64,000 bases of DNA from positions 2,728,001-2,792,000 of the forward strand of contig NZ_CP049362.1 in assembly GCF_019343455.1 (NCBI RefSeq). Direction: 5' to 3'. Numbering within the stretch: position 1 is the first letter of the stretch; the number at the start of each line of letters is the position of its first letter. The position numbers were made by a program, and so were the translations under genes. This stretch comes from Alcaligenes ammonioxydans. GTDB taxonomy: Bacteria; Pseudomonadota; Gammaproteobacteria; Burkholderiales; Burkholderiaceae_B. The notes beneath the pieces were generated by a model. It was given only the letters and a program-made list of their open reading frames with translations, was not told the DNA's origin and ran no database searches. Shown here in pieces: positions 5,075 through 23,604 of this stretch.

Positions 5075-5108
5075 CTCGCTCTCCTGACCCGCCCTGGCCT
5101 CGCAGGCC

Positions 5109-5606
5109 TTAATCGCCACTGTTGGTTTTGATGCGCTCTGTCATGTACTCAGGGATGGGATGCTTAAAGCTGTTCAAATAGCGCTCCCAGGCCAGATTGG
5201 CGGCGGCTCCATGCACAGGCAGCACCTGACCTTCACGCTCAGGGTCCGCCTGCATACTGAGCAGGCTGCGAGTATCCGGCCCCACTTCCAGACGCGGTGG
5301 AATATGACGACGTTCGTTCTGTACATGCACGGGCAACCCTTCTACTTCTGGCCAAGGATGCACCTCCTTGTCAGTCAAACGGTACGTTTCGTAAGGCTGT
5401 CGTGGCGCTGACGTGGCCGCGGGCGGCTCATCGGCAGGCACTGCCGGCGTGTGAACGCCCTGATTGCCGGCGGCGACCGCAGGGGCATTGAGCGGATAAG
5501 TCCTTGTGCCAGAGCCCATGGTGCCGGTGAGCGGCGCTTGTGTCTGCGCCCACGCGCCCGTGGCCATCAACAAAGTGCAGCAGGCCAAAATTCGGGATCG
5601 ATTCAT
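5109..5606 (-). CDS. DUF3613-like periplasmic protein of the Tad locus
   Basis: The product has 165 aa with a clean signal peptide (MNRSRILACCTLLMATGAWAQ). A low-complexity Pro/Ala stretch follows, then a conserved-looking C-terminal block with VGPDTRSLLSMQ and RYLNSFKHPIPEYM. That block matches my recollection of DUF3613, a small family found in betaproteobacterial tad operons between tadD and tadG, as here. Function is unknown. Location in the periplasm and co-expression with the Tad machine are supported by the signal peptide and by gaps of about 25-35 bp to both neighbours. Confidence 0.7.
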   Translation of the reverse strand: MNRSRILACCTLLMATGAWAQTQAPLTGTMGSGTRTYPLNAPAVAAGNQGVHTPAVPADEPPAATSAPRQPYETYRLTDKEVHPWPEVEGLPVHVQNERRHIPPRLEVGPDTRSLLSMQADPEREGQVLPVHGAAANLAWERYLNSFKHPIPEYMTERIKTNSGD

Positions 5607-5631
5607 TGCGATATCCTTGAAAAAACGGCAA

Positions 5632-6627: not shown

Positions 6628-6632
6628 CACAA

Positions 6633-7613: not shown

Positions 7614-7622
7614 GTCTTGCTC

Positions 7623-8546: not shown

Positions 8547-9881
8547 TTAGCGTCTCCAATCCCAGAATCCGCCACCCTCCTTGGGCGCATTTTCCTGAGC
8601 CTGAACCTGCTCATTGGCCAGTTGATCGCGATACTGCATCAGCTTGCGCGTATGTGGGTGAATGCCCAGGCTGACCCAGCGATCCTGTTCGGTGCCGTCA
8701 TCGAGCACATAGGACTCGTGGCGATACAGCTCTTGCATGGCGATGACACCATCGCCCATGCCGGTGATTTCCGTGATGGACAAGACCCGGCGTTTACCGT
8801 TGGGCAAACGACCGATTTGAATGATGAAGTCCAGCGCACTGGCAATCTGCCGACGCAAACTGTCCTCACTGCCCTGAAAGCCGGCAAAACCGGCCAGCAT
8901 TTCGACTCGGTAGACACATTCGCGCGGCGAGTTGGCATGGATTGTTGCCATGGAGCCTTCGTGGCCGGTGTTCATGGCCTGCAACATATCGATTACCTCG
9001 GCCCCTCGCACCTCGCCCACGACGACCCGATCCGGGCGCATACGCAAGCTGTTGCGCAACAGTTCACGAATCGAGATTTCACCACTGCCGTCATACCCGG
9101 CCTGACGCGCCTCCAGCCGCACCACATGGGGATGGTTCAAAGCCAGCTCGGCGGTATCTTCCACCGTCACCACCCGTTCTGTTTTGGGGATGTAAAACGC
9201 CAGTGCATTTAACAAGGAGGTTTTGCCCGAGCTGGTGCCACCCGAAATCAGGATGTTGCAGCGCGAGGCTACGGCGGCCTGCAACAGACGGTCCACCGGC
9301 TCATCAAACGCCCCCAGTCGCAGCAAGTCTTCTGGTTTGAGCGGGTCCTTGCGAAACTTGCGGATAGACACCATGGGGCCATCGACCGCCAAAGGATGAA
9401 TCACCACATTAAGGCGACCACCATCGGGCAAACGGGCATCGACCATGGGCACGGATTCATCCAGCCTGCGCCCCAGAGGGGCCAGAATACGGCGCACAAT
9501 GCGCAGCACATGCTGATCATCGGTAAAGCCACTGGGTTCACGCTGCAGAACGCCACCGCGCGAGACGAACAACTTGTCATGACCGTTGATCAGAATGTCT
9601 TCAACGCTAGGATCTTCCAGCAAGTCCTCCAGCGGCCCCAGCCCTGCCAGTTCGCGGGTCAAGGCCTGGACGATCTCCCGAACCTCCTGTTCGTTGACCG
9701 GCACCCGTTTCAAACGAACAAAGCTGGCCAGCTCAATGCCAACAAAATCCTGAATGGCCTGCCGTGTCCAGCGACCAAACTCGGCTCCCAACTCCTCGAT
9801 ACGAGCCAGCAAATGTTCATGGGCCTGTTCCCGGACCTGAATCAGGTCGGGACGCCCACCGAGCAATGAAGTATTGTTCAT
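8547..9881 (-). CDS. tadA: TadA/CpaF secretion ATPase
   Basis: The 444-aa product is a VirB11/CpaF-type hexameric ATPase. An N-terminal helical domain precedes the catalytic core with Walker A GGTSSGKT (214-221), an Asp-box region VEDTAELAL, Walker B-like RVVVGEVRG and a His box [10 protein letters not shown]. It powers assembly, and possibly retraction, of the Flp pilus from the cytoplasmic face of TadB/TadC. All expected catalytic motifs look intact. It sits in the standard order tadZ-tadA-tadB-tadC. Confidence 0.93.
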
Positions 9882-9908
9882 GCCTTACTTTTCCATGCTT
9901 GGGCCTGT

Positions 9909-11186
9909 TCAGCCCCCGAACCTGAATTTCAACCGTCCCAAAACCGTACTGACCTTGTTTTGCGACAGCCCCTGCCTGCGTCCCGTCAACCCCGATGCCA
10001 GATTCTGCAACGCGCGGGTATACGGGTCCCTCTCATCGACCTGCACTAAAATCTTGCCCAGGCCCGCGCTGCGCATATGCCCCAGACGCCGGTCCGGCAG
10101 CACGGCAGCCAGCTCCAGATCAAAACGCTCGGCAATCGCCTGACCGGAAAAGCCATAGGCGGGATCGAACTGATTGACCACCAGGCGCACATTGGCCAGC
10201 GCATCAAACTGGGTCCTTAGCGCCAGGAACTCGGCCAGCGAGACCAGCGCACCCATGCTCTGATCCGTGACAATCAACACCTCATCGACCAATGACTCCA
10301 GCTCCACCAGAAAACGCGGGTTGGGAAAGCCACCGGCATCAATGACCAGACATCCCATGCGTTCGCGCAGGTAACTGCACAGACTCAGGGAGTCCTCCAG
10401 GCTGATCTGATTGAGCGTATTGACATCAGCCGGCAAGGACAGCAGGTTCAATCCGCTGCTGTGCTGGGCCAGCGCCGAGTGCAGCATGGTGTCGTCCATG
10501 CGATGACGCTGCGCGGCAGCCTGAATAAAGTCAAAATCCGACCGCAAGCCCATGTAGAGCGCACAGTCTCCCGTCGGAGCCCCCAGATCCAGCAGACCCA
10601 CACGTTCACTCAAGGGCACCAGCTCGACAGGCAAGGGCTTGGCCGATGACACTCCCCGCTTCTCTTTGCCCAAACGGTTCATTTCCTGCTGCAACAACCA
10701 GGCCAGACTGCTGGCTGCCGTACTGCAGCCAACGCCGATACGGGCACTCATCAGCAAAATGCTGCGAAAAGGTTTGTCCAACAAAGGGCTATGCTGGGTC
10801 TGGCCCAGCTTTTCTATCAACACCTGCAATTGATGATGCAGGTCCTCCCTGGCATCCAGATCCAGAAATTCATTCGCTCCGGCTCGCAGGGCATTGACCG
10901 GACCTTGCGGAACCGACGCCCGGCCCACTGCCACACGCTGCACGCTGGCATCGAGTCGGGCCAGGCTGCGCACCAGCGCCACCACCTGCCCGTTCTCGTC
11001 CCCATGCTGCCCATGAACGAAATCAAAAAACACCAAAGGCTCTGCCTGCTGGGCCAGCTCCCGGCGCAAACTCTCGGTCGTGGGTTCAATGGCCCGCACC
11101 GTCAGCAGCCCCGCGGCGGCCGCGTTAATCATCACGGCCAGCTCGGGGTGCTCTGTACACAAGAGATATTCCCGGTATCGTTGCAC
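9909..11186 (-). CDS. tadZ: TadZ/CpaE-type localisation ATPase with degenerate P-loop
   Basis: The product has 425 aa. Residues 1-125 form an atypical receiver-like domain, followed by a ParA/MinD-type fold (ILLMSARIGVGCST, then LLDLGAPTG and LVIDAGG). TadZ places the Tad machine at the cell pole or envelope site. The deviant Walker motif, normally KGGxGK(S/T) or KGGVGSST, reads ARIGVGCST at 148-156, so neither lysine is kept. The GTG at 11186 was chosen because GGAG lies seven bases before it. It is preceded by the secretin gene with an 18-bp gap. Confidence 0.85.
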   Translation of the reverse strand: MQRYREYLLCTEHPELAVMINAAAAGLLTVRAIEPTTESLRRELAQQAEPLVFFDFVHGQHGDENGQVVALVRSLARLDASVQRVAVGRASVPQGPVNALRAGANEFLDLDAREDLHHQLQVLIEKLGQTQHSPLLDKPFRSILLMSARIGVGCSTAASSLAWLLQQEMNRLGKEKRGVSSAKPLPVELVPLSERVGLLDLGAPTGDCALYMGLRSDFDFIQAAAQRHRMDDTMLHSALAQHSSGLNLLSLPADVNTLNQISLEDSLSLCSYLRERMGCLVIDAGGFPNPRFLVELESLVDEVLIVTDQSMGALVSLAEFLALRTQFDALANVRLVVNQFDPAYGFSGQAIAERFDLELAAVLPDRRLGHMRSAGLGKILVQVDERDPYTRALQNLASGLTGRRQGLSQNKVSTVLGRLKFRFGG

Positions 11187-11203
11187 GTCACCACTCCACG
11201 CGC

Positions 11204-12538
11204 TTAGCGCGAAAACCCTGGCATCTGCTCATAGCCGTGTCGGCCCAGCAAGAAATAGCCCCAGGCATTCGGCGCGTCATCCAGCTTTTCCTGACGCCCT
11301 CCCGGCAGGGCTATCGTTGCCCCCTTCTGGATCGGTTTAATCAGACGAGGGGTGACGACAATGACCAGCTCCAGTTCGCTCTGGCTGTACTGCACATTGC
11401 GGAAAAAACTGCCCAGAATCGGCAAGTCACCCAAGAAAGGAATCTTTTTGACCGCTGCGGCAGTCTGACGGGACACCAGGCCACTGATGATGTAGCTCTG
11501 GCCATCACCCAGCTCGATCGTGGTGTCGGCTCGTCGGGTACGCAAAGACGGCATCACGCCCCCGCCCGGCATTTCCACAACGCGCGAGTAATCCAGCTCG
11601 CTGGCTTCTGGCGCGACTTTCAAGGCAATACGTTCGGCTGAGAGCACCGTCGGCGTGACCGTCAACCCAATACCAAAAGGTTTGTACTCCACCGTGGTGG
11701 TTCCCAGGCCCCCTGAGCTGGGGATAGGAATCTCACCACCGGACAGGAAGCTGGCGCTATGACCGGACATGGCGACCAAGGTTGGCTCGGCCAGAATCCG
11801 GGCCAGTCCGTTTTGCTCAAGCAGATTCAACGCCGCACTGAAGTTGCGGGAGTTATACGCCAGACTCAATCCGCCCGAAATCGCCTGGGGCAGCAAGTTC
11901 ACCCCGCCTGTCCAGGGCTTGCCACCGATGGCATTGGCACTGAGGCCAATGTCTTTCATGACTTCGCGGGAAACTTCCACCACTTTGACTTCCACCTGGA
12001 CCATGCCGCTGGTACTGACCTCGGACAGGTCCAGCACGGGCGCATCCGGGCTTGCGCCGGAACGCGCGGCCGCCATGGCATCCTGATGGTCCAGCAAAGA
12101 GGGGCTGCTGCCGGTAATCAAAGCCTGTTGTCCGGCGCTGGAGACCTGCGCCGACATGGGACGACCGGCCTGCGCCAGTTGCTGTTGCACCTGACTGCTC
12201 ACTTCAATCGTCCACCGATCCGGATTCGTGCGGCCCGGCATCCAGACACGCAGATCCGCCGTGCCCGCGCGTTTACCAATCAGCAGCACCTCGCCGCGTT
12301 GCCCGGCCGATGCGGACAGAATTTGCACATCCGCCACGCTTTCATCGCTAATCGCCACACGCAGCGGGACTTGCGACAAACGTAAAATATCCTGATCGTT
12401 GGCCACCAGGCGTATCACCTTCTGGCTGGCGCTGGTTTGAGCCGCTTGCGCCATGACAGGCACCGGTGCCAAAACCGACAAGCAGAGCGCATACCAGCAC
12501 CCCAAACCCAGACCTGCTTTTCTGATTTTCTGTCTCAT
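11204..12538 (-). CDS. rcpA: RcpA/CpaC outer-membrane secretin
   Basis: The 444-aa product begins with a signal peptide (cleavage after VMAQ). A pilus-secretin N-domain follows (RLVANDQDILRLSQVPLRVA and the later VLLIGKRAGTADLRVW), then the secretin core with VEVKVVEVSREVMKDIG, LAEPTLVAMSG, FLSGGEIPIP and a C-terminal VVTPRLIKPI. It forms the outer-membrane channel for the Flp pilus. I use the ATG at 12538 because it gives a normal signal peptide. TTG codons at 12610/12607 next to an AAGGAG would add 23-24 residues, and I cannot exclude them. Confidence 0.88.
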   Translation of the reverse strand: MRQKIRKAGLGLGCWYALCLSVLAPVPVMAQAAQTSASQKVIRLVANDQDILRLSQVPLRVAISDESVADVQILSASAGQRGEVLLIGKRAGTADLRVWMPGRTNPDRWTIEVSSQVQQQLAQAGRPMSAQVSSAGQQALITGSSPSLLDHQDAMAAARSGASPDAPVLDLSEVSTSGMVQVEVKVVEVSREVMKDIGLSANAIGGKPWTGGVNLLPQAISGGLSLAYNSRNFSAALNLLEQNGLARILAEPTLVAMSGHSASFLSGGEIPIPSSGGLGTTTVEYKPFGIGLTVTPTVLSAERIALKVAPEASELDYSRVVEMPGGGVMPSLRTRRADTTIELGDGQSYIISGLVSRQTAAAVKKIPFLGDLPILGSFFRNVQYSQSELELVIVVTPRLIKPIQKGATIALPGGRQEKLDDAPNAWGYFLLGRHGYEQMPGFSR

Positions 12539-12622
12539 GTGTTTAATCCATGCTGCCTTGCGTCGCTTCTCGTCAACCGCCTCTGGCAGGCTGACCCGTC
12601 CCCACAACAAGCTCCTTGCTGC

Positions 12623-13576
12623 TTAATGCTGAATAAGCTCTAAACGCCCACCGCGAATCACCTCTGTGCGCCGTGGCGGCGCGGCATTCGGCTGCCCGCT
12701 GGCCTGAGCTCGCGCCTGAACCTGCTCTTTCTCGCTCTGGCTGATCGTGAACTCCCGTAAGCCCAGACCTGCCATGGCACGGTTATCGGGTAGCTTCAAG
12801 GCCTCCCGCTGCTCCGCATCCAGCCCGGTGCGCGCTGGGATCAGCCCCGCAAACTCGGGAAACAAGGAGGGATCAGGCAGGCTCTCGTCCTTGGGTGCAC
12901 GCAAGACAACTTGCAAACTGCCACTGCGACTGGCCAGCAAAAGCTCGTTTACCGACTCCAGAGGGACTGCCAGCATGGCATGGCGAACCTGCGTGTCAGC
13001 ACGATTGCCCGAGGTGTTTTCGGCGGGGTCCGGCCCGGACAGGGAGGCACTACCATAGGCCAGCACCCGTACCCGTGGCATCAGCAAGCGAGCCTGGGTG
13101 TCCTTGACCTCGTTGCCATTGTTGAAGGTCATGAAGATATCGACCAGGTCGCCGGGTTCGACCCGGTTGCTGGCGCCCGAGATCACATCAACCGGAATCG
13201 TGACCGCGCGCTCGCCTGCGTCCAGATAGCTGGCCAGACTTTTGGCGATGAAGCTGCTCAATACCGGCTGCCCCTGCCCCAGATCAAAACGCAGCGTCTT
13301 GCCCGTCAAGGATTCCAGCGTATCGAAAGACTGTGCCGGCGCGGCAGGCCACTGGGCCAGCTCCAGCGCGTCGGCCTGCAAGGCCTCTCCCGCTTTAACA
13401 TCCCGTTTAGCGACTACGACCGGGTAAAGCGTCGCCGCTGGCTTGGCGCTGTGCGTGCTCACTACAGGCTGGACCACTTCAGGTTTGGGCTGCATGCCCA
13501 GGTACAAAGCAACTGCAACCAATACGGCTGCGACCAGCAATAAAAGGACTGCTGCCCCCTTCATCATGCCGCTCAT
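12623..13576 (-). CDS. cpaB: CpaB/RcpC Flp-pilus assembly protein
   Basis: The product has 317 aa with an N-terminal membrane anchor (GAAVLLLLVAAVLVAVALYLG). A SAF domain follows (VVAKRDVKAGEALQADALEL), and then the RcpC/CpaB domain with GERAVTIPVDVISGASNRVEPGDLVDIF. CpaB proteins are periplasmic, bind peptidoglycan or secretin and modulate the outer-membrane pore. The start overlaps the stop of the preceding tadE gene by four bases (ATGA), so translation is probably coupled. Confidence 0.9.
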   Translation of the reverse strand: MSGMMKGAAVLLLLVAAVLVAVALYLGMQPKPEVVQPVVSTHSAKPAATLYPVVVAKRDVKAGEALQADALELAQWPAAPAQSFDTLESLTGKTLRFDLGQGQPVLSSFIAKSLASYLDAGERAVTIPVDVISGASNRVEPGDLVDIFMTFNNGNEVKDTQARLLMPRVRVLAYGSASLSGPDPAENTSGNRADTQVRHAMLAVPLESVNELLLASRSGSLQVVLRAPKDESLPDPSLFPEFAGLIPARTGLDAEQREALKLPDNRAMAGLGLREFTISQSEKEQVQARAQASGQPNAAPPRRTEVIRGGRLELIQH

Positions 13577-14064
13577 GAATGTGGTCTCCTGAGTACAAGT
13601 AATGTCTTGGCGCTTAAGCTGCGCAATGGATCCGCCCCTTCCTTTTCAGGGGTGAGCAGGTCCAGGGTTTGAGAAAGAATGCCGGGCTCGAGATCCAGCT
13701 TCAACGAAAGTTGCGCGCAGTCGTACAGGGGCTCGGACGTGCAGGCCTGGGACTGGACCTCGGCGCTGAGATCACCGAACCAGTTCAAAAATGCGTCGCT
13801 CTTTGCTTGGCCCTTGCCATAGTTCTCGGCCAGTTGCTCATTGACAAAGGACTCTATCCCGTCAGCCGCCTTGACCTGCATGCTTACTTGGCGCGAAAGG
13901 TCGCCCAGCAAATGGTTCATCTTTTGCTGGGCCAGAAAGAATGAGCTGAAGGTAAGGATGCCGCTGAAAATCACCAGCAACAGCCCCACCATCAATGCAA
14001 ACTCGATGGCGGCCACGCCATGCTGACGCTGGGCAACGGCAATGGACGCGCGGGCATGAGTCAT
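13573..14064 (-). CDS. TadE-like pseudopilin 1
   Basis: The product has 163 aa. The N-terminus QHGVAAIEFALMVGLLLVIFSG is a class IVb pseudopilin leader: a Gly is followed by VAAIEFAL with Glu at +5, then a hydrophobic helix. The rest is a periplasmic domain with one Cys pair (ACTSEPLYDC). TadE-family pseudopilins are processed by the prepilin peptidase and needed for Flp assembly. It overlaps both neighbours by four bases (ATGA), marking one tightly coupled translation unit. Confidence 0.85.
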   Translation of the reverse strand: MTHARASIAVAQRQHGVAAIEFALMVGLLLVIFSGILTFSSFFLAQQKMNHLLGDLSRQVSMQVKAADGIESFVNEQLAENYGKGQAKSDAFLNWFGDLSAEVQSQACTSEPLYDCAQLSLKLDLEPGILSQTLDLLTPEKEGADPLRSLSAKTLLVLRRPHS

Positions 14065-14600
14065 GGCGTGCCCCCCTCTAAGCCCACCTCACCCGCAACC
14101 AGCAGATTGATGCGGGCATGCCCTTTTAGCTGTTCGGGCACGACCAGTGAAAACAGGGTATCGGGTGCAAAACGCGGAATCAGCGGTGCCTGCACGTAGT
14201 CGTAAACAATCCCGACGCTGATTTCCTCGCGTGACAAATCGGCGCTGACGCGCACATGCTCACTTCCCACCCAATGGCTTAACCATTGAACGTGATCGGC
14301 AGCTACTTGCCGGGCCCGGTCCGCCCGTGCCTGCAAGCGAGCCGGGCTGCTCATCGGATCGCTGTTTCCTGCCGCTGGCTCAATCAACGCCGCCCGCGCA
14401 CCGGATTCGGCGGCAAAATTCAGAGACTGCTGCGCGGTCATAATCAAACCGAAAGTCAGCAAGCCGTACATAAAAAGAAACAACAATGGAAAAACCAATG
14501 CAAATTCCAGCGCGTAGGCTCCGTATTGATAGTTTTTATCGACGCCTCGCCGCTTTGGTAATTGACCCTGTCGTGGGAGCATTATTGATTTTGCATCCAT
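14061..14600 (-). CDS. TadE-like pseudopilin 2
   Basis: The product has 179 aa, with the pseudopilin-type segment YQYGAYALEFALVFPLLFLFMYG (Gly then AYALE, Glu at +5). A longer hydrophilic leader precedes the helix than in the next gene. I place the start at the ATG at 14600, behind a GGGGTGG stretch. An ATG at 14582 that overlaps the upstream stop as TAATG is an equally sensible coupled start and would shorten the protein by six residues. The frame is open well upstream but runs through the peptidase gene, so that extension is not real. Confidence 0.8.
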   Translation of the reverse strand: MDAKSIMLPRQGQLPKRRGVDKNYQYGAYALEFALVFPLLFLFMYGLLTFGLIMTAQQSLNFAAESGARAALIEPAAGNSDPMSSPARLQARADRARQVAADHVQWLSHWVGSEHVRVSADLSREEISVGIVYDYVQAPLIPRFAPDTLFSLVVPEQLKGHARINLLVAGEVGLEGGTP

Positions 14601-15091
14601 ACCCACCCCATTGTTGCAAGGGATAACCAGGCCCCCAAGGGGACACTGCGCGCCTTGACCCGGGTACCCGGCAAGGCGAATCCGTACTTGCGCTCCAATG
14701 ATGGAATCAGCACCAACGCCAAGGCATGCAAACCCGCCAGCACTGTGCCGAACAACACCACCATGCCTGCCTCTTTCCACCCCAGCGCCAACCCTAACAC
14801 GGCCATCAGTTTCACATCGGCTGCCCCCATCAGGCGTGCGAGCCAAATGGGATAAAACACGAGCAAGGCAGCGGCAAAACCGATCAGCGAATCTCCCCAC
14901 CCCACCACCGATCCCCAGGGAAGGCCATAGAACACACTGACCAGGATCTTGTGTAGCAGAAGCGCCAAACCATAGAAAACTAGTACGGTATTAGGGATTT
15001 TCCGGAATTTCAGATCGCAATAAATAATCTGAATGGAAAAGAAAAGCAGAAGAAAAACAAAAGAAAGTTTTATTAAAACAAACATAAGCAT
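14582..15091 (-). CDS. tadV: Prepilin peptidase (A24 family, TadV/CpaA type)
   Basis: The product is a 169-aa polytopic membrane protein with five to six hydrophobic helices. The two catalytic aspartates of A24 aspartyl prepilin peptidases are recognisable: Asp26 in IYCDLKFRKIPN and Asp92 in LMGAADVKLM. The second motif is normally GxGD but here reads G-A-A-D (89-92). It should cleave the leaders of Flp and the TadE-like pseudopilins. The short form without an N-terminal methylase domain is normal for Tad loci. It lies directly downstream of flp. Confidence 0.85.
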   Translation of the reverse strand: MLMFVLIKLSFVFLLLFFSIQIIYCDLKFRKIPNTVLVFYGLALLLHKILVSVFYGLPWGSVVGWGDSLIGFAAALLVFYPIWLARLMGAADVKLMAVLGLALGWKEAGMVVLFGTVLAGLHALALVLIPSLERKYGFALPGTRVKARSVPLGAWLSLATMGWVWMQNQ

Positions 15092-15151
15092 CAGCCATTC
15101 AAACTTAAAGGCTCAGCCATTGTTTAATTGGCTGATGCTCAAACAATCGCC

Positions 15152-15334
15152 CTACTCGGCTTCTGCAGCAGAAGTCAGCTCAGTAGATATCCTTGTAAAC
15201 AAACCCTTCAAATCTCCACTTAGGGTGCTCAAAACACCAATGATCGCCACAGCGATCAGACCAGCGATCAAGCCATACTCGATAGCGGTCGCACCGTCTT
15301 CGTCTTTCCAGAATTGCTGAAGTTGAGTCTTCAT
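15152..15334 (-). CDS. flp: Flp-type IVb major pilin
   Basis: The precursor has 60 aa. A short hydrophilic leader MKTQLQQFWKDEDG ends at the cleavage Gly, followed by ATAIEYGLIAGLIAVAII, the Flp signature with Glu5 and Tyr6 of the mature pilin. The mature pilin would have about 46 residues and form the bundled adhesive fibre. The ATG at 15334 follows a GGGGA ribosome site. An upstream in-frame ATG at 15370 would spoil the leader. It is the first gene of the 13.7-kb Tad cluster. Confidence 0.95.
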   Translation of the reverse strand: MKTQLQQFWKDEDGATAIEYGLIAGLIAVAIIGVLSTLSGDLKGLFTRISTELTSAAEAE

Positions 15335-16011: not shown

Positions 16012-17769
16012 ATGCAAATGAATGACAAGCACCCCGTATCACTGGCCTTCCTTAGAAAAAAAAATCCCAGCCTGATTGCGAGCGTGGGATGCATGATGGG
16101 CCTGGCAGCGACAAGTCCGGCTAGCTGGGCAGACGCGCCCCTGCGGGGTAACCCCGTCGACGCGTTGCCGCCCATCAGCGCACCAGCCCCCAGGACGACT
16201 ACGCCGTCTTTAAGCATCCCCCCCGCCGCGGCACAAAACCAACTTCAACAACAACTCCAGCAGCAAGTGCTCGTTCGCAGCTTTGACGTCAGTGGCAGTC
16301 GCAGCATCCCCTTTGAACAGATCACGGCCATTCTGGAGCCGCTGGCGGGCAAAACACTGACCATCGCCCAGTTGATCAACGAAGTGAACAAGATCACTGC
16401 GCTTTATCAACAAAAAGGCTACCCGCTGTCCTTTGCTGTCTTGCAGCAACAAGACTTCGCGCAAGGTCACATCAAGGTTACGGTCGTGGAAGGCCATGTT
16501 GGCAGTGTCCGCATTGAAGGCGATCCGGGCCGCAGCCGGGCGCGGATCGAACGCATTGCCCAGGCGATGGTGGACGAAAAGCCGCTGACCCAACGCACGC
16601 TGGAGCGCACCATGAACTTGCTGCGCACCGTGCCTGGCCTGAAGATCGACCCCAAGCTGGACATGCCTGTGCGCACGGATGGCGCCTCCGAGCTGCTGAT
16701 AGAGGCTCAACACAAATCATTTAGCGCAAATGCCAGTATCGCGGAGATGGGGTCCAGCAAACAGGCGCTGGTGCAACTGAGCGCCAACAGCCTGACCCCC
16801 TTGGGAGAAGAGCTCAAGCTAACCGCCGCCATTCCCACCGGCCCCGAAGACGTCAAATACGTCAGCGGCAATCTGACCATCCCTCTTAACGGCAACGGTC
16901 TGAACCTGGAAATAGACGGCTACCACTATCGCTCCGAGCCACGCGACGAAGTCCTGGAAAGACAGGGCTGGAATCGCAAGGTTATCAACGAGCGCATCGG
17001 CGCAGCCATCAGCTACCCCTTCATTCTGAACAATCAGCGCAGCCTCAAAGGTACGGCCGGCTTTTATGCCAGCCGGTCTCTGGACGATTACACCCACAAA
17101 ACGCTGGACAATGTCTGGATCGAAAACACCACCGATGTACGCGCATTGAAGGCCGAGCTGCGCTATACCGATGCCTCGGCCCGACAGTCGCGGGAACTGA
17201 ACCTGGGGGTATACAAGGGCTTGGACGCCATGGGCGCTCGTAAATCCTTGAACACGTACTTGCAGCGTGACGCCGAATCCGATCTGGACCTGGATTTCAC
17301 CCGCTGGACCGCTTCCTTCAGACAGAATCTGGCCTTGCCGGGACAATTTGGCATGAGCTTTTCTGCCAGTGGCCAATACAGCTCCAATGTCCTGCCCAAT
17401 TCCGAACAGATCTCGTTTGGCGCATGGCGACACGGCTACGGGTATCCCCAAGGTGAACTGGCCGGTGACAAAGGCCTGGGCGCGACCTTGGAAATCAATC
17501 GTCGTTTTACCAACTCCTCGCGCTGGCTCAATAGCATCCAACCCTATATCGCTTATGACTGGGCACGCGCTTGGTATAACCTGGATCGCCTGAACAGCTA
17601 CAACAACCGTGAATTGCGATCGGCAGCCATTGGGGTACGGCTGTCCAATAACAAGCATTACTTGTTTGATATCAACGTGGCAAAACCGCTGGGAGATTTG
17701 CCGGTCAATTCCGACCAACGAAAACTACGGTTGAACACGAATTTCCTGTTCTTCTACGACGGCTTTTAA
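16012..17769 (+). CDS. TpsB/FhaC/ShlB-family outer-membrane transporter
   Basis: The product has 585 aa. After a signal region (cleavage near SWADA) comes a Pro/Gln-rich linker, then a POTRA domain (VRSFDVSGSRSIPFEQITAI), a second POTRA-like region (VTVVEGHVGSVRIEG) and a C-terminal 16-strand barrel ending in LNTNFLFFYDGF with terminal Phe. TpsB proteins secrete large beta-helical TpsA exoproteins in two-partner secretion. The conserved loop-6 motif, usually with RGY, reads HGYGYPQGELAGDKG (474-488), placing Tyr476 where Arg is expected. No TpsA-like gene lies in the window. An ATG at 16018 is an alternative start. Confidence 0.85.
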   Translation: MQMNDKHPVSLAFLRKKNPSLIASVGCMMGLAATSPASWADAPLRGNPVDALPPISAPAPRTTTPSLSIPPAAAQNQLQQQLQQQVLVRSFDVSGSRSIPFEQITAILEPLAGKTLTIAQLINEVNKITALYQQKGYPLSFAVLQQQDFAQGHIKVTVVEGHVGSVRIEGDPGRSRARIERIAQAMVDEKPLTQRTLERTMNLLRTVPGLKIDPKLDMPVRTDGASELLIEAQHKSFSANASIAEMGSSKQALVQLSANSLTPLGEELKLTAAIPTGPEDVKYVSGNLTIPLNGNGLNLEIDGYHYRSEPRDEVLERQGWNRKVINERIGAAISYPFILNNQRSLKGTAGFYASRSLDDYTHKTLDNVWIENTTDVRALKAELRYTDASARQSRELNLGVYKGLDAMGARKSLNTYLQRDAESDLDLDFTRWTASFRQNLALPGQFGMSFSASGQYSSNVLPNSEQISFGAWRHGYGYPQGELAGDKGLGATLEINRRFTNSSRWLNSIQPYIAYDWARAWYNLDRLNSYNNRELRSAAIGVRLSNNKHYLFDINVAKPLGDLPVNSDQRKLRLNTNFLFFYDGF

Positions 17770-17830: not shown

Positions 17831-17874
17831 GTATTCCATCGAGCCATTTTTTGGGCTCAGGTGTTACGAAAAAC

Positions 17875-17884
17875 GTTACGTAAC
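17875..17884. promoter_or_regulatory. GTTACGTAAC palindrome, candidate upstream activator/operator site 1
   Basis: A perfect 10-bp palindrome with an extra half site GTTACG 13 bases upstream. It lies about 150 bp upstream of the sigma54 promoter at 18032, a usual position for an enhancer-binding-protein site. The identical palindrome stands before the second lipoprotein gene. It could instead be a MarR operator. Binding is inference. Confidence 0.6.
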
Positions 17885-18031
17885 AGGAACAGAACAAAGC
17901 GTTAAAACCGGGCTACCCCCCTCTTATCCAGGCTTAAAAACCACACACCAGCGTGCCTGAAAACACAAAAACCAAGCCCAAGCCAATGATTTAAAACCAA
18001 AAAACAAAAAACAAAACCATACACAATAAAT

Positions 18032-18047
18032 TGGCACTATTTTTGCT
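18032..18047 (+). promoter_or_regulatory. sigma54 (RpoN) promoter of lipoprotein gene 1
   Basis: TGGCACTATTTTTGCT matches the sigma54 consensus TGGCAC-N5-TTGC with the required GG-N10-GC spacing. Transcription should start near 18057, leaving a leader of about 46 bases before the ATG at 18104. Confidence 0.8.
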
Positions 18048-18103
18048 TAAAGACTGACAACAGCCCTTGAAGGGCGTGCTTACACTTCAAACCGGAGTCA
18101 GTC

Positions 18104-19828
18104 ATGAAAGCAAGGAATTCAGCAAGAAACGCCTCAAGCCAACGCAACTTGCAACGTGCGCTTGTCGCGACATTGATCATCAGCGCTACCGTTCTGGCCG
18201 GATGCTCCTCACGCGGCGGCGTGCGTGATGGTCTGGACCTGTCGGCTCGCCCGCCGGCTATCGATCCCAACCTGCCCACACCCGGCGACGGGGGCACAGG
18301 AGGCGGCGGCGATGGTGGCGGTGGCAACAACGGCGGAGGGGACAACGGCGGTGGTGACAACGGCGGCGGCAAAGACAACAGCCTGACCCAAAATGCGTTG
18401 GGTAATCTGGGCCAGGCAGTCGACAACGTGGTTCCCCTGAATCTGAGCAAGACTGGCAATCAACTGGGCGAAACACTCGATGGCGCATTGAAACCGGTTA
18501 CGGATATCGTGACCGACACAAGCCGTACTGTCGGTAGTGTGACCGGACTGGGTCAGCCTGTTAATGGACTGACTCAACAAGTCGGCGGAGTAGTGACCAA
18601 TCTGGGCGACCAATTGGGCAAGACCGGCCTGCCGCTGAATCTGGGTGAAGGTGCAGGCGGCCTGCTCTCTCATCTGGGTCAAGCCGTCGGATCGGTTGGC
18701 GGGTTGCTGGTAAATGACCCGCAAAATCTCAACCCGCTAGGCGACACACTGCACCACGCCACCAAGGGCGTAGAAGTCCTGACCGGTTCTTTGCTGGGTG
18801 AGGGCAGTCTCCTGCATCCCCTGACCGCTCAACTGGGACTGGGTGGTCTCTTGCTGGCAGAAGAAGGGGAACCGGTGCTCAAACCGGCCTTGGGCAATGT
18901 CGGACAAACCGTAGATAACATTTTGCCTCTGGGCCTGAACCCCATTTTAGGTGACGTGGGCGGCGCTCTGGACAATACCGTTGCACCGGTGGTCGCTACC
19001 GTCACCAATGTGACTCAGCAAGTCGGCGACGGTCTGGGCGTCGGGCAGCCTATCAATGCCCTGCTTGGCGGCGTGGGTAGTGCTTTGGGGAATGTAGGCA
19101 GCCAATTGGACCATGCTGCGCCGTTGGGGCTGGGTGGTGTGGTAGGTCATCTGGGCCAGGCCGTGGCTTCAGCAGGTGGTTTGCTACACCACACAGACAG
19201 CAACACCAATCCCTTGGGTGACACCCTGAATCACGCTACCCAGGCGGTTGCCTCCCTGACAGGCGGGCTGGGCGGAATTACGGGTGGAGAGGGAGGTGGC
19301 CTACTAGCTCCTGTAACTGGCCTGCTGGGCGGGCTGGGTGGCGGCGAAGCTGCTAATGGCGGTTTGCTCGCACCCGTGACCAACCTGGTCGGCGGGCTGA
19401 CGGGCGGACTGGCCGGCGGTGACGCAGCCAACGGCGGTTTGCTCGCGCCAGTGACCAACCTGGTCGGCGGGCTGACGGGCGGACTGGCCGGCGGTGACGC
19501 AGCCAACGGCGGTTTGCTCGCACCCGTGACCAACCTGGTCGGCGGGCTGACGGGCGGACTGGCTGGCGGTGACGCAGCCAACGGCGGTTTGCTCGCACCC
19601 GTGACCAACCTGGTCGGCGGGCTGACGGGCGGACTGGCTGGCGGTGACGCAGCCAACGGCGGTTTGCTCGCGCCAGTGACCGGTTTGGTCGGTGGGCTGG
19701 TTGGTGGCCTGACAGGCTCGGTCAGTGCCCCGGCCAATACTGGCGAGAGCGGCGCTCAAGCCAATGGAGGATTGCTCTCACCCGTCACCGGCCTGGTCGG
19801 TGGCTTGCTCGGAGGTGGCCGCAAATGA
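18104..19828 (+). CDS. Repeat-rich surface lipoprotein 1 (collagen-like-repeat type)
   Basis: The 574-aa product has a lipoprotein signal (LIISATVLAGCSS). A Gly/Asn/Asp linker (units of DNGGG) follows, then two related blocks of about 150 aa that both carry GNxGQxVDN, VTGLGQPVN/GLGVGQPIN, HLGQAVxSxGGL and PLGDTLxHAT motifs. The C-terminal region contains four full 25-aa repeats (core LAPVTNLVGGLTGGLAGG). Composition is extremely rich in Gly and Leu with almost no aromatic residues. Databases tend to name such proteins collagen-like repeat proteins; I know no proven function. A surface or outer-membrane tethered adhesin or matrix role is inferred. GGAG precedes the ATG. The stop overlaps the MarR start (ATGA). 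Confidence 0.75.
   Translation: MKARNSARNASSQRNLQRALVATLIISATVLAGCSSRGGVRDGLDLSARPPAIDPNLPTPGDGGTGGGGDGGGGNNGGGDNGGGDNGGGKDNSLTQNALGNLGQAVDNVVPLNLSKTGNQLGETLDGALKPVTDIVTDTSRTVGSVTGLGQPVNGLTQQVGGVVTNLGDQLGKTGLPLNLGEGAGGLLSHLGQAVGSVGGLLVNDPQNLNPLGDTLHHATKGVEVLTGSLLGEGSLLHPLTAQLGLGGLLLAEEGEPVLKPALGNVGQTVDNILPLGLNPILGDVGGALDNTVAPVVATVTNVTQQVGDGLGVGQPINALLGGVGSALGNVGSQLDHAAPLGLGGVVGHLGQAVASAGGLLHHTDSNTNPLGDTLNHATQAVASLTGGLGGITGGEGGGLLAPVTGLLGGLGGGEAANGGLLAPVTNLVGGLTGGLAGGDAANGGLLAPVTNLVGGLTGGLAGGDAANGGLLAPVTNLVGGLTGGLAGGDAANGGLLAPVTNLVGGLTGGLAGGDAANGGLLAPVTGLVGGLVGGLTGSVSAPANTGESGAQANGGLLSPVTGLVGGLLGGGRK
19355..19693 (+). repeat. 75-bp in-frame tandem repeats in lipoprotein 1
   Basis: There are four complete 75-bp units (starting 19355, 19430, 19505, 19580) and a partial fifth. 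Each encodes 25 aa starting NGGLLAPVTN. The units are nearly identical in DNA, which suggests recent expansion or gene conversion. Because 75 is a multiple of three, copy-number change would alter length but not frame. Confidence 0.9.
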
Positions 19829-20415
19829 TGAATAAAGTCATGAATCCGGTAAGTTTGCCGGTCAACTTTCACCCAGGTACATCAGGCGCAGGCAGCCGTT
19901 CCAACTGGTCCTCCCACGATGAACAGCAACACATGCTGTCAGAAAAGATGTTGATGGATCTGGGCAAAATGCTGGGCCGTCAGTTCACCATTTATGCAGA
20001 GGCCCTGAAAGCCAGTCTGGCCGAACAGGCCAATATGCCCCTGAATGATTTCAAGGCCTTGGAATACATCATGGAGTTCGATGCCCTGCCAACAGGACAA
20101 CTGGCACACCTGATGGACTTAAGCGCCAGTGGCGTCAGCGCCCTGATTAATCGCCTGGAGCACAAAGGATACATCACCCGCGGTCGCCACCCCTTGGACA
20201 AGCGGGTCATTGCCCTGCACCCGGTCATGGACAAATGTCGCGAAGTCCTTGCCGTGAAAGAGCGTGCCATCAATCAAGCGATCAACACGGCGGCCAGCCA
20301 GAATCCCGCCCAACTGATCGCCATGTATGACTTTTTGGTCGACAGCATGAGCACCTTCCGACAAAACACCAAAGCATGGCTGGATGCGAAGGCACTGGTA
20401 CCGCGGTCCTCCTGA
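19825..20415 (+). CDS. MarR-family regulator 1
   Basis: The product has 196 aa. A disordered N-terminal extension of about 45 residues precedes a MarR-type winged helix: LSEKMLMDLGKMLGRQ, the recognition region LSASGVSALINRLEHKGYITR and the wing RGRHPLDKRVIALHPV. Its start overlaps the stop of lipoprotein gene 1 by four bases, so the two are co-translated. It is a paralogue of the regulator at 23074 (shared L-N-x-(F/Y)KALE, DLSxSGxxALIxRLE and HPxDxR signatures). It may control the lipoprotein genes or respond to an envelope ligand; neither is shown by the sequence. Confidence 0.85.
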   Translation: MMNKVMNPVSLPVNFHPGTSGAGSRSNWSSHDEQQHMLSEKMLMDLGKMLGRQFTIYAEALKASLAEQANMPLNDFKALEYIMEFDALPTGQLAHLMDLSASGVSALINRLEHKGYITRGRHPLDKRVIALHPVMDKCREVLAVKERAINQAINTAASQNPAQLIAMYDFLVDSMSTFRQNTKAWLDAKALVPRSS

Positions 20416-20433
20416 ACCTGTTGCCACGCCTTT

Positions 20434-20465
20434 AAGAACCGCTGCTTGTCAGCGGTTCTTTTTTT
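20434..20465 (+). terminator. Terminator after MarR regulator 1
   Basis: An 11-bp perfect stem AAGAACCGCTG / CAGCGGTTCTT with a 5-nt loop and a T run. It ends one base before the second GTTACGTAAC palindrome. Confidence 0.92.
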
Positions 20466-20475
20466 GTTACGTAAC
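20466..20475. promoter_or_regulatory. GTTACGTAAC palindrome, candidate upstream activator/operator site 2
   Basis: This is identical to the palindrome at 17875 and lies about 110 bp upstream of the second sigma54 promoter. A further half site CGTAAC occurs about 30 bp downstream, near 20500. Repeated placement before both intact lipoprotein genes argues for a shared regulator. Confidence 0.6.
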
Positions 20476-20578
20476 ACGTTCCTCCCAAGCGCCGAAACCC
20501 GTAACAAATAGCCCTCTTTTTTTCTCGTATTTTGCACCAAACCGAGCATCGATGCGGGTTTCATAAAACCAAGAAAAT

Positions 20579-20594
20579 TGGCATGCGAATTGCT
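20579..20594 (+). promoter_or_regulatory. sigma54 (RpoN) promoter of lipoprotein gene 2
   Basis: TGGCATGCGAATTGCT has the sigma54 arrangement GG-N10-GC with TTGCT in the -12 box. The start of transcription should be near 20605, about 43 bases before the ATG at 20648, almost the same layout as at 18032. Confidence 0.78.
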
Positions 20595-20647
20595 TGAACC
20601 TCAACCAAGAAGCAAGCAGGTACCCCGATCATTTATTGGAGCAAGCA

Positions 20648-22630
20648 ATGCATAACAATACAGACAGCAAGAAACCAGGCCTTCGCCTGACCATCCTAGC
20701 CACCTTGATGGCCAGTACTCTGGCTTTAACCGCCTGCGGCAGCCTAAGCGGCGGCGGTTCTTCGGGAGGCTCTGACAATTCCATCCCAACCAATCCAGAC
20801 ACAGGCAACGGAGGTGGTACAGGCGGCGGTGGTGACAACGGCGGTGGTGACAACGGCGGTGGCGACAACGGCGGTGGCGACAACGGCGGCGGTGACAACG
20901 GCGGTGGCGACAACGGCGGTGGTGATAACGGCGGAGGTGATAACGGCGGTGGTGACAACGGCGGCGGTGACAACGGCGGTGGTGATAACGGCGGTGGTGA
21001 TAACGGCGGTGGTGATAACGGCGGCGGTGACAACGGCGGTGGCGACAACGGCGGTGGTAATCCTCGCACTCCCGGACCACTGGAAACCACGCTCAACAAT
21101 GTCGGTGAAGCAGTCGATAACGTGCTGCCGGTAGGCTTGCAAGATACAGGAGCAGGCTTGGGCCAAGCACTGGATACCGTCGTCGCCCCGGTTGTGGATA
21201 CTGCCACAGGCCTGACCCAACAAGTTGGAGGTGCCACAGGTTTGGGCGAGCCCGTCAATAATCTGCTGGGGCAGACGGGCGGCGTGGTCGTCAATCTAGG
21301 CGAGCAACTGGGTAATACCGGCCTGCCACTAAACCTGGGTCAAGGTGTGGGCGGTCTGTTGACCGGGCTGGGCAATGCGGTGGGCAGCGCGGGTGGTTTG
21401 CTGCATGCAGACGCCAGCAACCCGAAGCCATTGACCGCCGTGCTAGGTCATGCGACAGGAGGGGTTGCCGCTTTGACCGACTCCTTGTTGGGTGAAGGCA
21501 GCCTGCTCTATCCATTGACGGGTCAGTTGGGTTTGGGTGGCCTGCTGGACGGCACAGACGCCGCTCCCATTCTTGAGCCATCACTGGCGAATGTAGGCCA
21601 GACGGTAGACAACATCCTGCCCCTTGGACTGAACCCCATTCTGGGCAATGTCGGCCAGACTCTGGATACCGTCGTTGCTCCAGTCGGCGCAACGGTCACT
21701 CATGTGACGCAACAAGTCGGTGACGGCCTGGGCGTGGGCCAACCCATCAACGCCCTGCTAGGCGGCGTGGGCAGCGCCCTGGCTAATGTGGGCACGCAGC
21801 TAGATGGCGCTGCCCCTGTGGGGCTGGGCGGTGTTGTGGGTCATCTGGGCCAGGCAGTCGCCTCGGTGGGCGGACTGGTTCACCAAACCGATAGCAACAC
21901 GAACCCCCTGGGTAATACCCTCAACCACGCGACACAAGCCGTTGCCTCTTTAACCGGTGGTCTGACTGGCAATGGTGACGGCGGCTTGCTTTCGCCTGTA
22001 ACCGGCTTGCTGGGCGGGCTGACGGGCGGTTTGGCCGGTGGTGATGCTGCCAATGGTGGCTTGCTCGCTCCCGTCACCAATCTGGTCGGTGGCCTGACGG
22101 GCGGTTTGGCCGGTGGTGATGCCGCCAATGGTGGCTTGCTCGCCCCTGTCACCAATCTGGTCGGCGGGCTGACCGGCGGTTTGGCCGGTGGCGATGCCGC
22201 CAATGGTGGCTTGCTCGCTCCTGTCACCAATCTGGTCGGCGGGCTGACCGGCGGTTTGGCCGGTGGTGATGCTGCCAATGGTGGCTTGCTCGCTCCCGTC
22301 ACCAATCTGGTCGGTGGCCTGACGGGCGGTTTGGCCGGTGGTGATGCCGCCAATGGTGGCTTGCTCGCCCCTGTCACCAATCTGGTCGGCGGGCTGACCG
22401 GCGGTTTGGCCGGTGGCGATGCTGCCAATGGTGGCTTGCTCGCTCCTGTGACAGGCTTGGTCGGTGGCTTGACGGGAGGACTGCTGGGTGGGACAAGCGT
22501 CTCGGTTGACGTGGGAGCTTCGGGCAGCGTGGACGCGGGCGGTCCCGCTACTGCAGGCAACAACAATGGCGGCCTGCTGGCACCGGTAACCGGTTTGCTG
22601 GGCGGCTTGCTCGGTAGCGGGCCTCGCTAA
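20648..22630 (+). CDS. Repeat-rich surface lipoprotein 2 (paralogue of lipoprotein 1)
   Basis: The product has 660 aa. The signal ends in ALTACGSLSGGG (lipobox LTAC). It is followed by exactly fifteen DNGGG units, two 150-aa related blocks like those in the first paralogue (GLGEPVNNLLGQ, GLGVGQPINALLGG, HLGQAVASVGGLVHQ), five complete 25-aa repeats (core LAPVTNLVGGLTGGLAGG) and a short tail ending LLGGLLGSGPR. The long Gly-rich linker would hold the domains away from the lipid anchor. The ATG at 20648 follows a GGAG site; an upstream TTG at 20594 lies inside the promoter. It forms its own transcription unit. Function is unknown; a surface adhesin is my inference. Confidence 0.75.
   Translation: MHNNTDSKKPGLRLTILATLMASTLALTACGSLSGGGSSGGSDNSIPTNPDTGNGGGTGGGGDNGGGDNGGGDNGGGDNGGGDNGGGDNGGGDNGGGDNGGGDNGGGDNGGGDNGGGDNGGGDNGGGDNGGGDNGGGNPRTPGPLETTLNNVGEAVDNVLPVGLQDTGAGLGQALDTVVAPVVDTATGLTQQVGGATGLGEPVNNLLGQTGGVVVNLGEQLGNTGLPLNLGQGVGGLLTGLGNAVGSAGGLLHADASNPKPLTAVLGHATGGVAALTDSLLGEGSLLYPLTGQLGLGGLLDGTDAAPILEPSLANVGQTVDNILPLGLNPILGNVGQTLDTVVAPVGATVTHVTQQVGDGLGVGQPINALLGGVGSALANVGTQLDGAAPVGLGGVVGHLGQAVASVGGLVHQTDSNTNPLGNTLNHATQAVASLTGGLTGNGDGGLLSPVTGLLGGLTGGLAGGDAANGGLLAPVTNLVGGLTGGLAGGDAANGGLLAPVTNLVGGLTGGLAGGDAANGGLLAPVTNLVGGLTGGLAGGDAANGGLLAPVTNLVGGLTGGLAGGDAANGGLLAPVTNLVGGLTGGLAGGDAANGGLLAPVTGLVGGLTGGLLGGTSVSVDVGASGSVDAGGPATAGNNNGGLLAPVTGLLGGLLGSGPR
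20834..21058 (+). repeat. 15 tandem copies of a 15-bp repeat encoding DNGGG
   Basis: The repeat spans 225 bases of units gaYaacggcggYggY, with differences only at third positions. It encodes fifteen consecutive DNGGG pentapeptides just after the lipid anchor. Paralogue 1 has only two to three such units (about 18335-18370). Slipped-strand length variation in frame is expected. Confidence 0.95.
22018..22476 (+). repeat. 75-bp in-frame tandem repeats in lipoprotein 2
   Basis: There are five complete 75-bp units (starting 22052, 22127, 22202, 22277, 22352) flanked by partial ones. The encoded 25-aa unit is identical to that of lipoprotein 1, although codon choice differs between the genes (for example gccaatggtggc here, gccaacggcggt there). 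The protein unit is thus conserved across the duplication while each array is homogenised within its own gene. Confidence 0.92.
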
Positions 22631-22636
22631 ACCAGA

Positions 22637-22661
22637 GGAAGGGGCGCATCCCGCCCCTTCC
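22637..22661 (+). terminator. Hairpin after lipoprotein gene 2
   Basis: A 10-bp GC-rich stem GGAAGGGGCG / CGCCCCTTCC has a 5-base loop and lies seven bases past the stop. There is no T run, so it may be a weak terminator or an mRNA 3' stabiliser. Confidence 0.6.
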
Positions 22662-22695
22662 TTCAAAAGCTCATCCATTTCTCATGGAGTAAGTC

Positions 22696-23067
22696 ATGAC
22701 TCGCAGAAGACACAGGCATTATGAATCTGGCAGACTTGGCTTACTCAGCCCAAGGATTACCTTCTTGACAGCATTTGCCAGCTTGGCAAGACAGGCTGCC
22801 AAGTCATCACTCACACCCGGCACGGTGAGCATGACAACGGCTGTCACAACGCCCCGTACAGGGGCCGCTTCCCCCTCTTTCGCACACACTAAACAAACCT
22901 GGTCCATCAGGGGCCAGCTCATGGTCGCCCCAGCATCCAGTCCCCAGCAGTCCGCTGCTCTTGCCCACTCTGCCCGCTGCGTATCGGGCGCTCCTGACGG
23001 CGACCCTGCTCTTTACCACAAGCGTCTGACACCCTTTACCGGTTTGCTGGGTGCTCCCCCACGCTAG
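22696..23067 (+). pseudogene. Probable decayed third copy of the lipoprotein gene
   Basis: The open frame has 123 codons. Its translation start context GGAGTAAGTCATGA nearly copies that of lipoprotein 1 (GGAGTCAGTCATGA). Its end ...TPFTGLLGAPPR resembles the paralogues' ...APVTGLLGGLLGSGPR, with shared DNA ACCGGTTTGCTGGG. The interior has no lipobox, no repeats and no family motifs, and its composition is unlike a typical protein. It stands directly before a MarR gene, as lipoprotein 1 does. I read it as an internally deleted or scrambled remnant. A small unrelated protein acting as a coupling leader remains possible. Confidence 0.45.
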
Positions 23068-23073
23068 GGATAT

Positions 23074-23604
23074 ATGCGTATGCCCAATAAACAGCCCCTG
23101 ACAACCGTGTGGACCGAGCCAGAAGCAAGGGACGAAGTTTTGTCAGGGCATATGCAAAACGATATCGTGCGCATGATGTTGCGCCAGTTTGATGTCTACC
23201 TGGAAGCAAACAAGCACCAGTTGGCACGAGCCGCTGGTTTGAGTCTGAATGAGTACAAGGCCCTGGAGTTTGTGCTGGAACTCAAACCCCTGTCTCCGGG
23301 GAGGCTGGCCCAATTACTGGATCTGAGCCCCAGCGGCACTCAAGCCTTGATTACCCGACTGGAAAACGCAGGTTACTTGCTGCGCAAGCCCCATCCGCGC
23401 GACGGACGCATGACCAGCCTGTATCCCAACCAGGAACGCTGCAAGCGCTTGATGGGCGACATGGATTTACCCGCGCAGCAGGTCATGCAGGCCGCGGCAC
23501 ACTACAACCCTAAACAAATCACCGCTCTTTACGAATTTCTTCTTAAAAGTCTTGAGCATCTGCGTCAGGATGCCCTGGACAGGCTCAAGCACAAAACCAC
23601 CTAG
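23074..23604 (+). CDS. MarR-family regulator 2
   Basis: The product has 176 aa, with a winged-helix core including LNEYKALEFVLELKPLSPGRLAQLLDLS in part, the recognition helix SPSGTQALITRLENAGYLLR and the wing KPHPRDGRMTSLYP. It is a clear paralogue of the regulator at 19825, including the C-terminal helices (NPKQITALYEFLL against NPAQLIAMYDFLV). An ATG at 23080 is an alternative start; AGGG lies before both. It follows the lipoprotein remnant by seven bases and ends at a strong terminator. Target and ligand are unknown. Confidence 0.85.
   Translation: MRMPNKQPLTTVWTEPEARDEVLSGHMQNDIVRMMLRQFDVYLEANKHQLARAAGLSLNEYKALEFVLELKPLSPGRLAQLLDLSPSGTQALITRLENAGYLLRKPHPRDGRMTSLYPNQERCKRLMGDMDLPAQQVMQAAAHYNPKQITALYEFLLKSLEHLRQDALDRLKHKTT

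Follow-up and report, generated by a model that had tools for sequence, protein, structure and literature searches.

A predicted sigma-54 regulon of Collagen_mid lipoproteins beside the Tad pilus cluster of Alcaligenes ammonioxydans, with a GtrR-type protein as its putative activator

The window analysed here is a stretch of 64,000 nucleotides from Alcaligenes ammonioxydans (NZ_CP049362.1, positions 2,728,001 to 2,792,000), part of a 3.77 Mb single-contig genome. It carries, from left to right, a gene for an enhancer-binding protein (EBP) and a Tad/Flp pilus cluster, both on the minus strand, then a divergent TpsB gene, CLP1, MarR1, CLP2, the remnant of a third copy and MarR2, where CLP denotes a collagen-like lipoprotein of the Collagen_mid family (PF15984). 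The evidence suggests, with a probability that we put at roughly 85%, that the locus is a sigma-54 regulon of Collagen_mid surface lipoproteins, which the EBP at the Tad end, a protein of the GtrR type, would activate through a palindrome. This reading is supported because its elements are conserved, co-occurring and genome-specific, and because the EBP family corresponds to GtrR.

Promoter boxes, palindromes and their conservation

Both intact CLP genes are preceded by a -24/-12 box, TTGGCACTATTTTTGCTT for CLP1 and TTGGCATGCGAATTGCTT for CLP2, located 55 and 52 bp upstream of the respective ATG. Each box shows GG-N10-GC in a TGGCAY/TTGCW context and scored 13/14 by hand against what we take to be the sigma-54 consensus (TGGCAY/TTGCW, 14 positions). 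When two mismatches were allowed, four boxes were observed in the window against 4.59 expected, which is within chance. The strict pattern TTGGCAYN5TTGCW, derived from the two boxes themselves, occurred at 10 sites in the whole genome and at 1 in the reversed control. Upstream of both boxes lies the identical palindrome GTTACGTAAC, here regarded as an upstream activating sequence (UAS), whose centre is 151 bp (CLP1) and 107 bp (CLP2) from the box start. This motif, which was taken from the initial finding itself, had no occurrence in 100 shuffles of the window; the genome contains only two copies, both before CLP genes, and the reversed control was found at one place. Among the 10 strict sigma-54-like sites, only the two CLP promoters had a UAS (at most two mismatches) within 400 bp. 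Hence the promoters at nearly equal distance from the ATG, and the identical palindrome before each of them, were found as the initial annotation had described them.

Eight of the nine other genomes of the genus keep the order TpsB, palindrome, box, CLP1, MarR1, palindrome, box, CLP2, MarR2, and when all ten are aligned, the conservation of the palindrome and of the -24/-12 box is conspicuous. In G005 (L037/L067), CLP1 has been lost and no UAS of at most one mismatch precedes CLP2. Palindromes at the CLP locus account for 29 of the 40 found in 16 CLP-bearing genomes; 22 genomes lacking CLPs total 13.

Subsequently, 79 loci obtained by scanning with a TpsB alignment were examined. They represent the best of 181 TpsB relatives, with closely related species counted separately, and come mostly from Alcaligenes, Achromobacter, Bordetella, Pigmentiphaga, Allopusillimonas, Burkholderia, Paraburkholderia, Trinickia, Cupriavidus and Collimonas; among the named loci, the closest TpsB is that of Alcaligenes (92% to A. 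faecalis AU14). A pair was defined as a UAS with at most one mismatch lying 80-250 bp from a box of at least 11/14 with GG-N10-GC, a spacing range chosen after the spacings in the loci had been seen. Such a pair precedes a CLP in 72 of the 79 loci (42/45 of the Alcaligenaceae type and 30/34 on the Burkholderia side), with a site-to-promoter distance of about 105-210 bp. Of 126 pairs in total, 119 have a CLP downstream. A block-shuffled control, which preserves only the single-base content of 200-bp blocks, averaged 0.4 pairs per set over 5 shuffled sets. Of the remaining seven pairs, six are in L067, L088 and L095, where the CLP is lost or the contig ends before it, and one is a stray in L118. 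These four loci, together with L134, L112 and L121, are the seven without a pair before a CLP: the contig of L134 begins inside the CLP, L118 has a UAS with no box at the threshold, L112 and L121 have no Tad gene in the fetched stretch, and in L121, a CLP-TpsB locus, neither UAS nor box was seen. The spacer between UAS and box contains a motif resembling that of integration host factor (IHF) in 23 of the 72 loci, against 0.76 expected from base shuffling. The lipoprotein, palindrome and box near tad, proposed earlier as a set worth seeking in Alcaligenaceae, are thus conserved there. As a separate observation, Cupriavidus loci L110, L115, L118, L133 and L138 have two divergent CLPs facing each other, with two copies of the UAS between the genes or close by.

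The Tad-end activator and the dispersed regulon

The EBP consists of an AAA+ sigma-54 domain with GAFTGA and a Fis-type helix-turn-helix (HTH), as in bacterial EBPs (bEBPs), and its profile matched PDB entry 7vbs with E 6.3e-226. The locus resembles classical sigma-54/bEBP promoters of the NtrC and FleQ class in its UAS, IHF-like motif, -24/-12 box and GAFTGA-bearing AAA+ activator. It differs from them in the N-terminal part of the EBP, for which the PDB gave no match up to E 10 other than 7vbs and 7vbw, and Pfam none in 14/14 members; a receiver domain was accordingly rejected. The window EBP was aligned with 26 of the 44 other EBP matches. Over these 27 proteins, the helix that we presume to be the recognition helix is invariant except for its V and M, each of which varies in a few.

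The occurrence of the EBP follows that of the lipoproteins. A search with PF15984 was positive in 16 of the 61 relatives. Among the 38 genomes compared (G000-G036 and G042, the last included for its CLP), the EBP (E <= 1e-70) occurred in all of these 16 and in no other; the 23 other genomes of the order, all without CLP, were left out of this search. A second search (E <= 1e-90), covering 29 of the 79 loci, detected the EBP in 28 of the 29 genomes of named loci, as a single match in 27. By coordinates, and assuming a shared contig, it lies within 7 kb of the edge of the fetched locus in 25 of the 28. It is on a contig other than that of the locus for L105, L112 and L118; in the L112 genome it is about 15 kb from a second pair of CLPs, the first gene of which has UAS and box. 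The L121 genome alone gave no EBP at that threshold. Together with the promoter pairs, this co-occurrence supports the earlier proposals of sigma-54 control, of the palindrome as enhancer and of the Tad-end EBP as activator.

Sequence and position identify the EBP family as GtrR; published statements here and below are taken from the accessible parts of the cited papers. The cloning primers for gtrR (PMC8174753) match both ends of the 463-residue EBP open reading frame (ORF) of Burkholderia cenocepacia NCTC13227 without a mismatch, and the window EBP is 51% identical to this counterpart (L163). GtrR is BCAL1536 (PMC9684580, PMC12838280), which falls within the flp operon BCAL1525-1537 (PMC2753556). 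It is the counterpart of the window EBP and, like it, stands at the Tad cluster end; both the position and the published primers agree with orthology. GtrR is reported to act in complex with RpfR under the control of the signal BDSF and of cyclic di-GMP (c-di-GMP) (PMC12838280). No DNA site or CLP regulon for GtrR was found in the literature searched, which had most subscription papers outside its reach.

The pair is also found at CLPs unlinked to the Tad cluster. Further CLPs were sought with PF15984 in 12 genomes (one match was without a fetched locus), and six of the eight unlinked CLPs examined have a pair: L003 in G042, L186 in Collimonas, and L206, L208, L209 and L210 in Burkholderia. 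Furthermore, the pattern GYTACGTWAC, which is blind to CLPs, was searched in the B. cenocepacia genome; it occurs at 14 places, seven of which have a box of at least 10/14 at 80-250 bp. Of these seven pairs, three lie before genes that correspond, judging by their neighbours, their size and their GTS repeats, to BCAL1524, BCAM1598 and BCAM0695, and a fourth lies before the gene of a secreted repeat protein. This last protein (L217, + strand from 1691) stands behind UAS and box, has NPLAPVQGVVNQVTGALGGG-type repeats and a signal peptide with no lipobox by eye, and was not listed by the PF15984 search; judging from its promoter, it is likely a new regulon member. In a published transcriptome, contact with membrane vesicles of host cells is reported to induce BCAL1520, BCAL1523, BCAL1524, BCAL1533 and flp genes jointly (PMC7970998), and BCAM0695 was induced in the same study according to PMC10224339.

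Several observations weigh against this reading. In the published GtrR target bclACB, neither a UAS (at most two mismatches allowed) nor a box of at least 10/14 was seen, either inside the mobility shift probe or up to 300 bp from it; GtrR may bind bclACB differently, or its effect may need RpfR. The unlinked CLPs L204 and L205 (the BCAL2397 counterpart) have neither UAS nor box, and three of the seven B. cenocepacia pairs lack a convincing downstream gene, the 10/14 threshold being loose. The induction of BCAM0695 is known second-hand, its name being absent from the main text of PMC7970998 and present in PMC3079749. In addition, of the 30 pair-bearing loci on the Burkholderia side only 3 have the exact palindrome, and G017 (as L071) has a one-mismatch site only. 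Neighbouring UAS copies have mixed spacings (5, 17, 22, 32, 33 and 100 bp), so that a uniform helical phasing of paired copies was rejected.

The lipoproteins and their neighbours

The two intact paralogous lipoprotein genes and the third remnant claimed at the outset were confirmed, CLP1 and CLP2 being identical in 358 of 503 aligned columns. Each has a signal peptide and a lipobox cysteine, read by eye, and matches PF15984 with 76.6 (CLP1) and 78.3 bits (CLP2), above the curated cut-off of 31.1. Six of the nine genus-mates have, at the position of the third copy, a longer paralogue in which a signal peptide but no lipobox was recognised by eye. The repeats of the window CLPs are GGGDN and a 25-residue unit, and long Gly-X-Y stretches as in true collagen were not found in them; the label "collagen" is thus misleading for CLP1 and CLP2. 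CLP2 has tandem repeats of 15 and 75 bp. In-frame 75-bp tandem repeats (25 residues) are located at the CLP C-termini, at 19327-19699 and 22013-22476 of the window; CLP length varies among genus-mates, and repeat copy number may vary. An alignment of 14 CLPs was also made. The best of five structure models of CLP1 showed two helical modules between disordered ends at low confidence (mean pLDDT 53.9), and a Foldseek search of this model against the PDB gave 73 matches at E up to 10 and none at E <= 0.001; we therefore claim no fold.

PF15984 proteins have been proposed as a new adhesin class of the Burkholderia cepacia complex (PMC10224339). Autoaggregation is reduced when BCAL1524 is deleted, and the protein is present in outer membrane vesicles (PMC10303873). 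In that complex, as in the window, Collagen_mid lipoproteins (BCAL1523/BCAL1524) adjoin Tad and TpsB genes in the flp cluster BCAL1520-1537 (L128). The TpsB of L128 is by position BCAL1522, published as a heme utilization-related exported protein. The Burkholderia locus differs in having no MarR, in its order (CLP-CLP-TpsB on one side of flp, against TpsB-CLP-MarR in the window) and in its GTS repeats.

The coordinates of the features are collected in Table 1. Beyond them, after MarR2, a gene at 23770-26613 has the same place in all nine genus-mates. Its product is presumably an M16-type peptidase.

Table 1 Features of the locus, in window coordinates
Feature	Position	Strand	Remarks
GtrR-type sigma-54 activator (bEBP; putative), Tad cluster end	1578..3029	-	conserved start near 2981; PF00158 + HTH_8
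Tad/Flp pilus cluster	3002..15334	-	flp, tadV, two TadE-type, rcpC, rcpA, tadZ, tadA, tadB, tadC, TPR/tadD-like, DUF3613, tadG
Orphan TpsB	16012..17769	+	POTRA_2 + ShlB
UAS palindrome GTTACGTAAC of CLP1	17875..17884	.	extra GTTACG half-site at 17863
Sigma-54 -24/-12 promoter of CLP1, box TTGGCACTATTTTTGCTT	18031..18048	+	predicted
CLP1, Collagen_mid repeat-rich lipoprotein	18104..19828	+	PF15984 E 2.9e-21
MarR1	19825..20415	+	PF12802/PF01047; 4-nt overlap with CLP1
UAS palindrome GTTACGTAAC of CLP2	20466..20475	.	extra CGTAAC half-site at 20500
Sigma-54 -24/-12 promoter of CLP2, box TTGGCATGCGAATTGCTT	20578..20595	+	predicted
CLP2, Collagen_mid repeat-rich lipoprotein	20648..22630	+	PF15984 E 8.9e-22
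Degenerate remnant, third CLP paralogue	22696..23067	+	only family C-terminus, no lipoprotein start
MarR2	23074..23604	+	PF12802/PF01047

The Tad/Flp cluster contains flp, tadA-C, rcpA, rcpC and TadE/TadG genes. A Pfam scan of the ten ORFs at 3002-14064 supports this assignment; the ORF at 9909-11186 had no match and is called tadZ by position, and the second TadE-type gene, tadV and flp were named from sequence and position. The RcpC search was positive in 37 of 38 genomes, matches taken to include SAF/FlgA-like proteins, and was for this reason not used to judge Tad presence. The Tad cluster and EBP beside the lipoproteins were thus as first described, and the EBP start then given (2981) fits the conserved one. 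Upstream of flp, inside a strongly conserved stretch, the spaced UAS-like element GTTACACGTAAAC was observed at 15504-15516. Likewise, MarR1 and MarR2 proved to be paralogous (40% identical), the former coupled to CLP1. In L037/L067 (2238-3081), MarR1 is immediately preceded by a sigma-54 box and by two palindromes separated by 22 bp.

Palindromes are frequent targets of MarR proteins, and in loci of the Alcaligenaceae type the MarR and CLP genes are coupled; the palindrome could accordingly be a MarR operator through which MarR represses or activates the lipoproteins. We consider this very unlikely. A profile search detected MarR in 37 of the 45 loci of the Alcaligenaceae type, and in the other eight the contig breaks off within the CLP or ahead of it; MarR was detected in 0/34 Burkholderia-side loci as fetched, a few of them short, where the pair is nevertheless common; the palindrome is therefore independent of MarR. 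Its distance from the promoter is that of an enhancer rather than an operator, and unlinked CLPs have it as well. The MarR link of the lipoprotein family, as first claimed, thus stands for the Alcaligenaceae and fails on the Burkholderia side: MarR appears to be a lineage-specific companion and not the conserved binder of the palindrome, and feedback control of the CLPs by MarR is a guess. A different question is whether the EBP also drives the Tad pilus from a sigma-54 promoter, so that pilus and lipoproteins would form one switch, as the initial annotation supposed. The EBP is the last gene of the Tad cluster, pilus and CLP genes are reported as co-induced in B. cenocepacia (PMC7970998), GTTACACGTAAAC lies 173-182 bp before flp, and a TTGG-N11-GC element begins 78 bp before flp in 8/8 genomes tested. 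However, GTTACACGTAAAC was found in 12 of 62 flp upstream regions, all of Alcaligenes (nine distinct genomes), and in no other genus scanned, and GG-N11-GC has a non-standard spacing and is missing in G004. Moreover, within 700 bp before any listed flp gene, in sets that count some genomes twice under two locus ids, no box of at least 12/14 was detected. Canonical sigma-54 control of flp was consequently rejected, and one sigma-54 programme for pilus and lipoproteins is not borne out. We regard the single switch as unlikely; the pilus may or may not belong to that of the lipoproteins.

The role of TpsB is more evenly balanced. Its POTRA_2 and ShlB domains are those of two-partner secretion (FhaC/ShlB), from which it differs in that its neighbour is a lipoprotein and no TpsA was found: PF05860, the TPS domain, gave 0 matches in the source genome (G000), whereas the same search was positive in 7 of 12 genomes, and the description of TpsB as an orphan thus holds. 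TpsB might be merely a neighbour, unrelated to the lipoproteins, and this has not much less than an even chance. The 18 kb surrounding the unlinked G042 CLP (L047) gave no TpsB match, Table 1 of PMC10224339 lists no such neighbour for BCAL2397, BCAM0695 and BCAM1598, and CLP1 and CLP2 have no TPS-domain match. On the other hand, TpsB and CLP are adjacent in either gene order and in both branches of the family, including L112 and L121, in loci that had been selected by TpsB, and it is retained in G000 and likewise in G001, G021, G061 and G074, where PF05860 was not found either. These findings suggest that TpsB probably helps in the surface display of CLPs.

Proposed mechanism and significance

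In the mechanism that we propose for the sigma-54 regulon, GtrR would bind GTTACGTAAC about 105-210 bp upstream of the box, IHF would bend the intervening DNA in part of the loci, and the AAA+ domain of GtrR would open the sigma-54 polymerase at the -24/-12 box. The CLP would then be made, in Alcaligenaceae with the coupled MarR, and would go to the outer membrane as an adhesive lipoprotein displayed beside the Tad pilus, probably with the aid of the adjacent TpsB. In Alcaligenes, RpfR and c-di-GMP may provide the input.

The initial annotation knew of no described system with this layout. This is only partly correct: GtrR is known from Burkholderia, and so are collagen-like lipoproteins encoded next to the flp cluster and induced along with it. 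In B. cenocepacia, BCAL1523/1524 and BCAL1522 are published as neighbours of the flp operon, and joint induction is reported for the lipoprotein and flp genes (PMC10224339, PMC7970998, PMC2753556). The regulatory wiring, that is, the enhancer palindrome, the sigma-54 boxes, the assignment of GtrR and the dispersed CLP regulon, was not found in the literature searched, nor were the MarR arm in Alcaligenaceae and the TpsB-CLP link (mostly without subscription papers). A further-reaching reading is offered tentatively and with rather low confidence: the direct GtrR regulon across Alcaligenaceae and Burkholderiaceae would be dispersed collagen-like adhesins under one palindromic enhancer, and TpsB would be a dedicated lipoprotein exporter. 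In that case the display of adhesins would be governed by quorum sensing and c-di-GMP acting through RpfR, and TpsB with CLP would be a two-partner system with a lipoprotein cargo.

GtrR is a known, poorly mapped downstream regulator of the BDSF/c-di-GMP quorum-sensing pathway of Burkholderia. The palindrome and promoter pair gives it a precise predicted site and a target list, consistent with the published co-induction, and makes the partner of the orphan TpsB a concrete question. Through the pair, quorum sensing would be connected with pilus and adhesin in many bacteria of environmental or opportunistic lifestyle.

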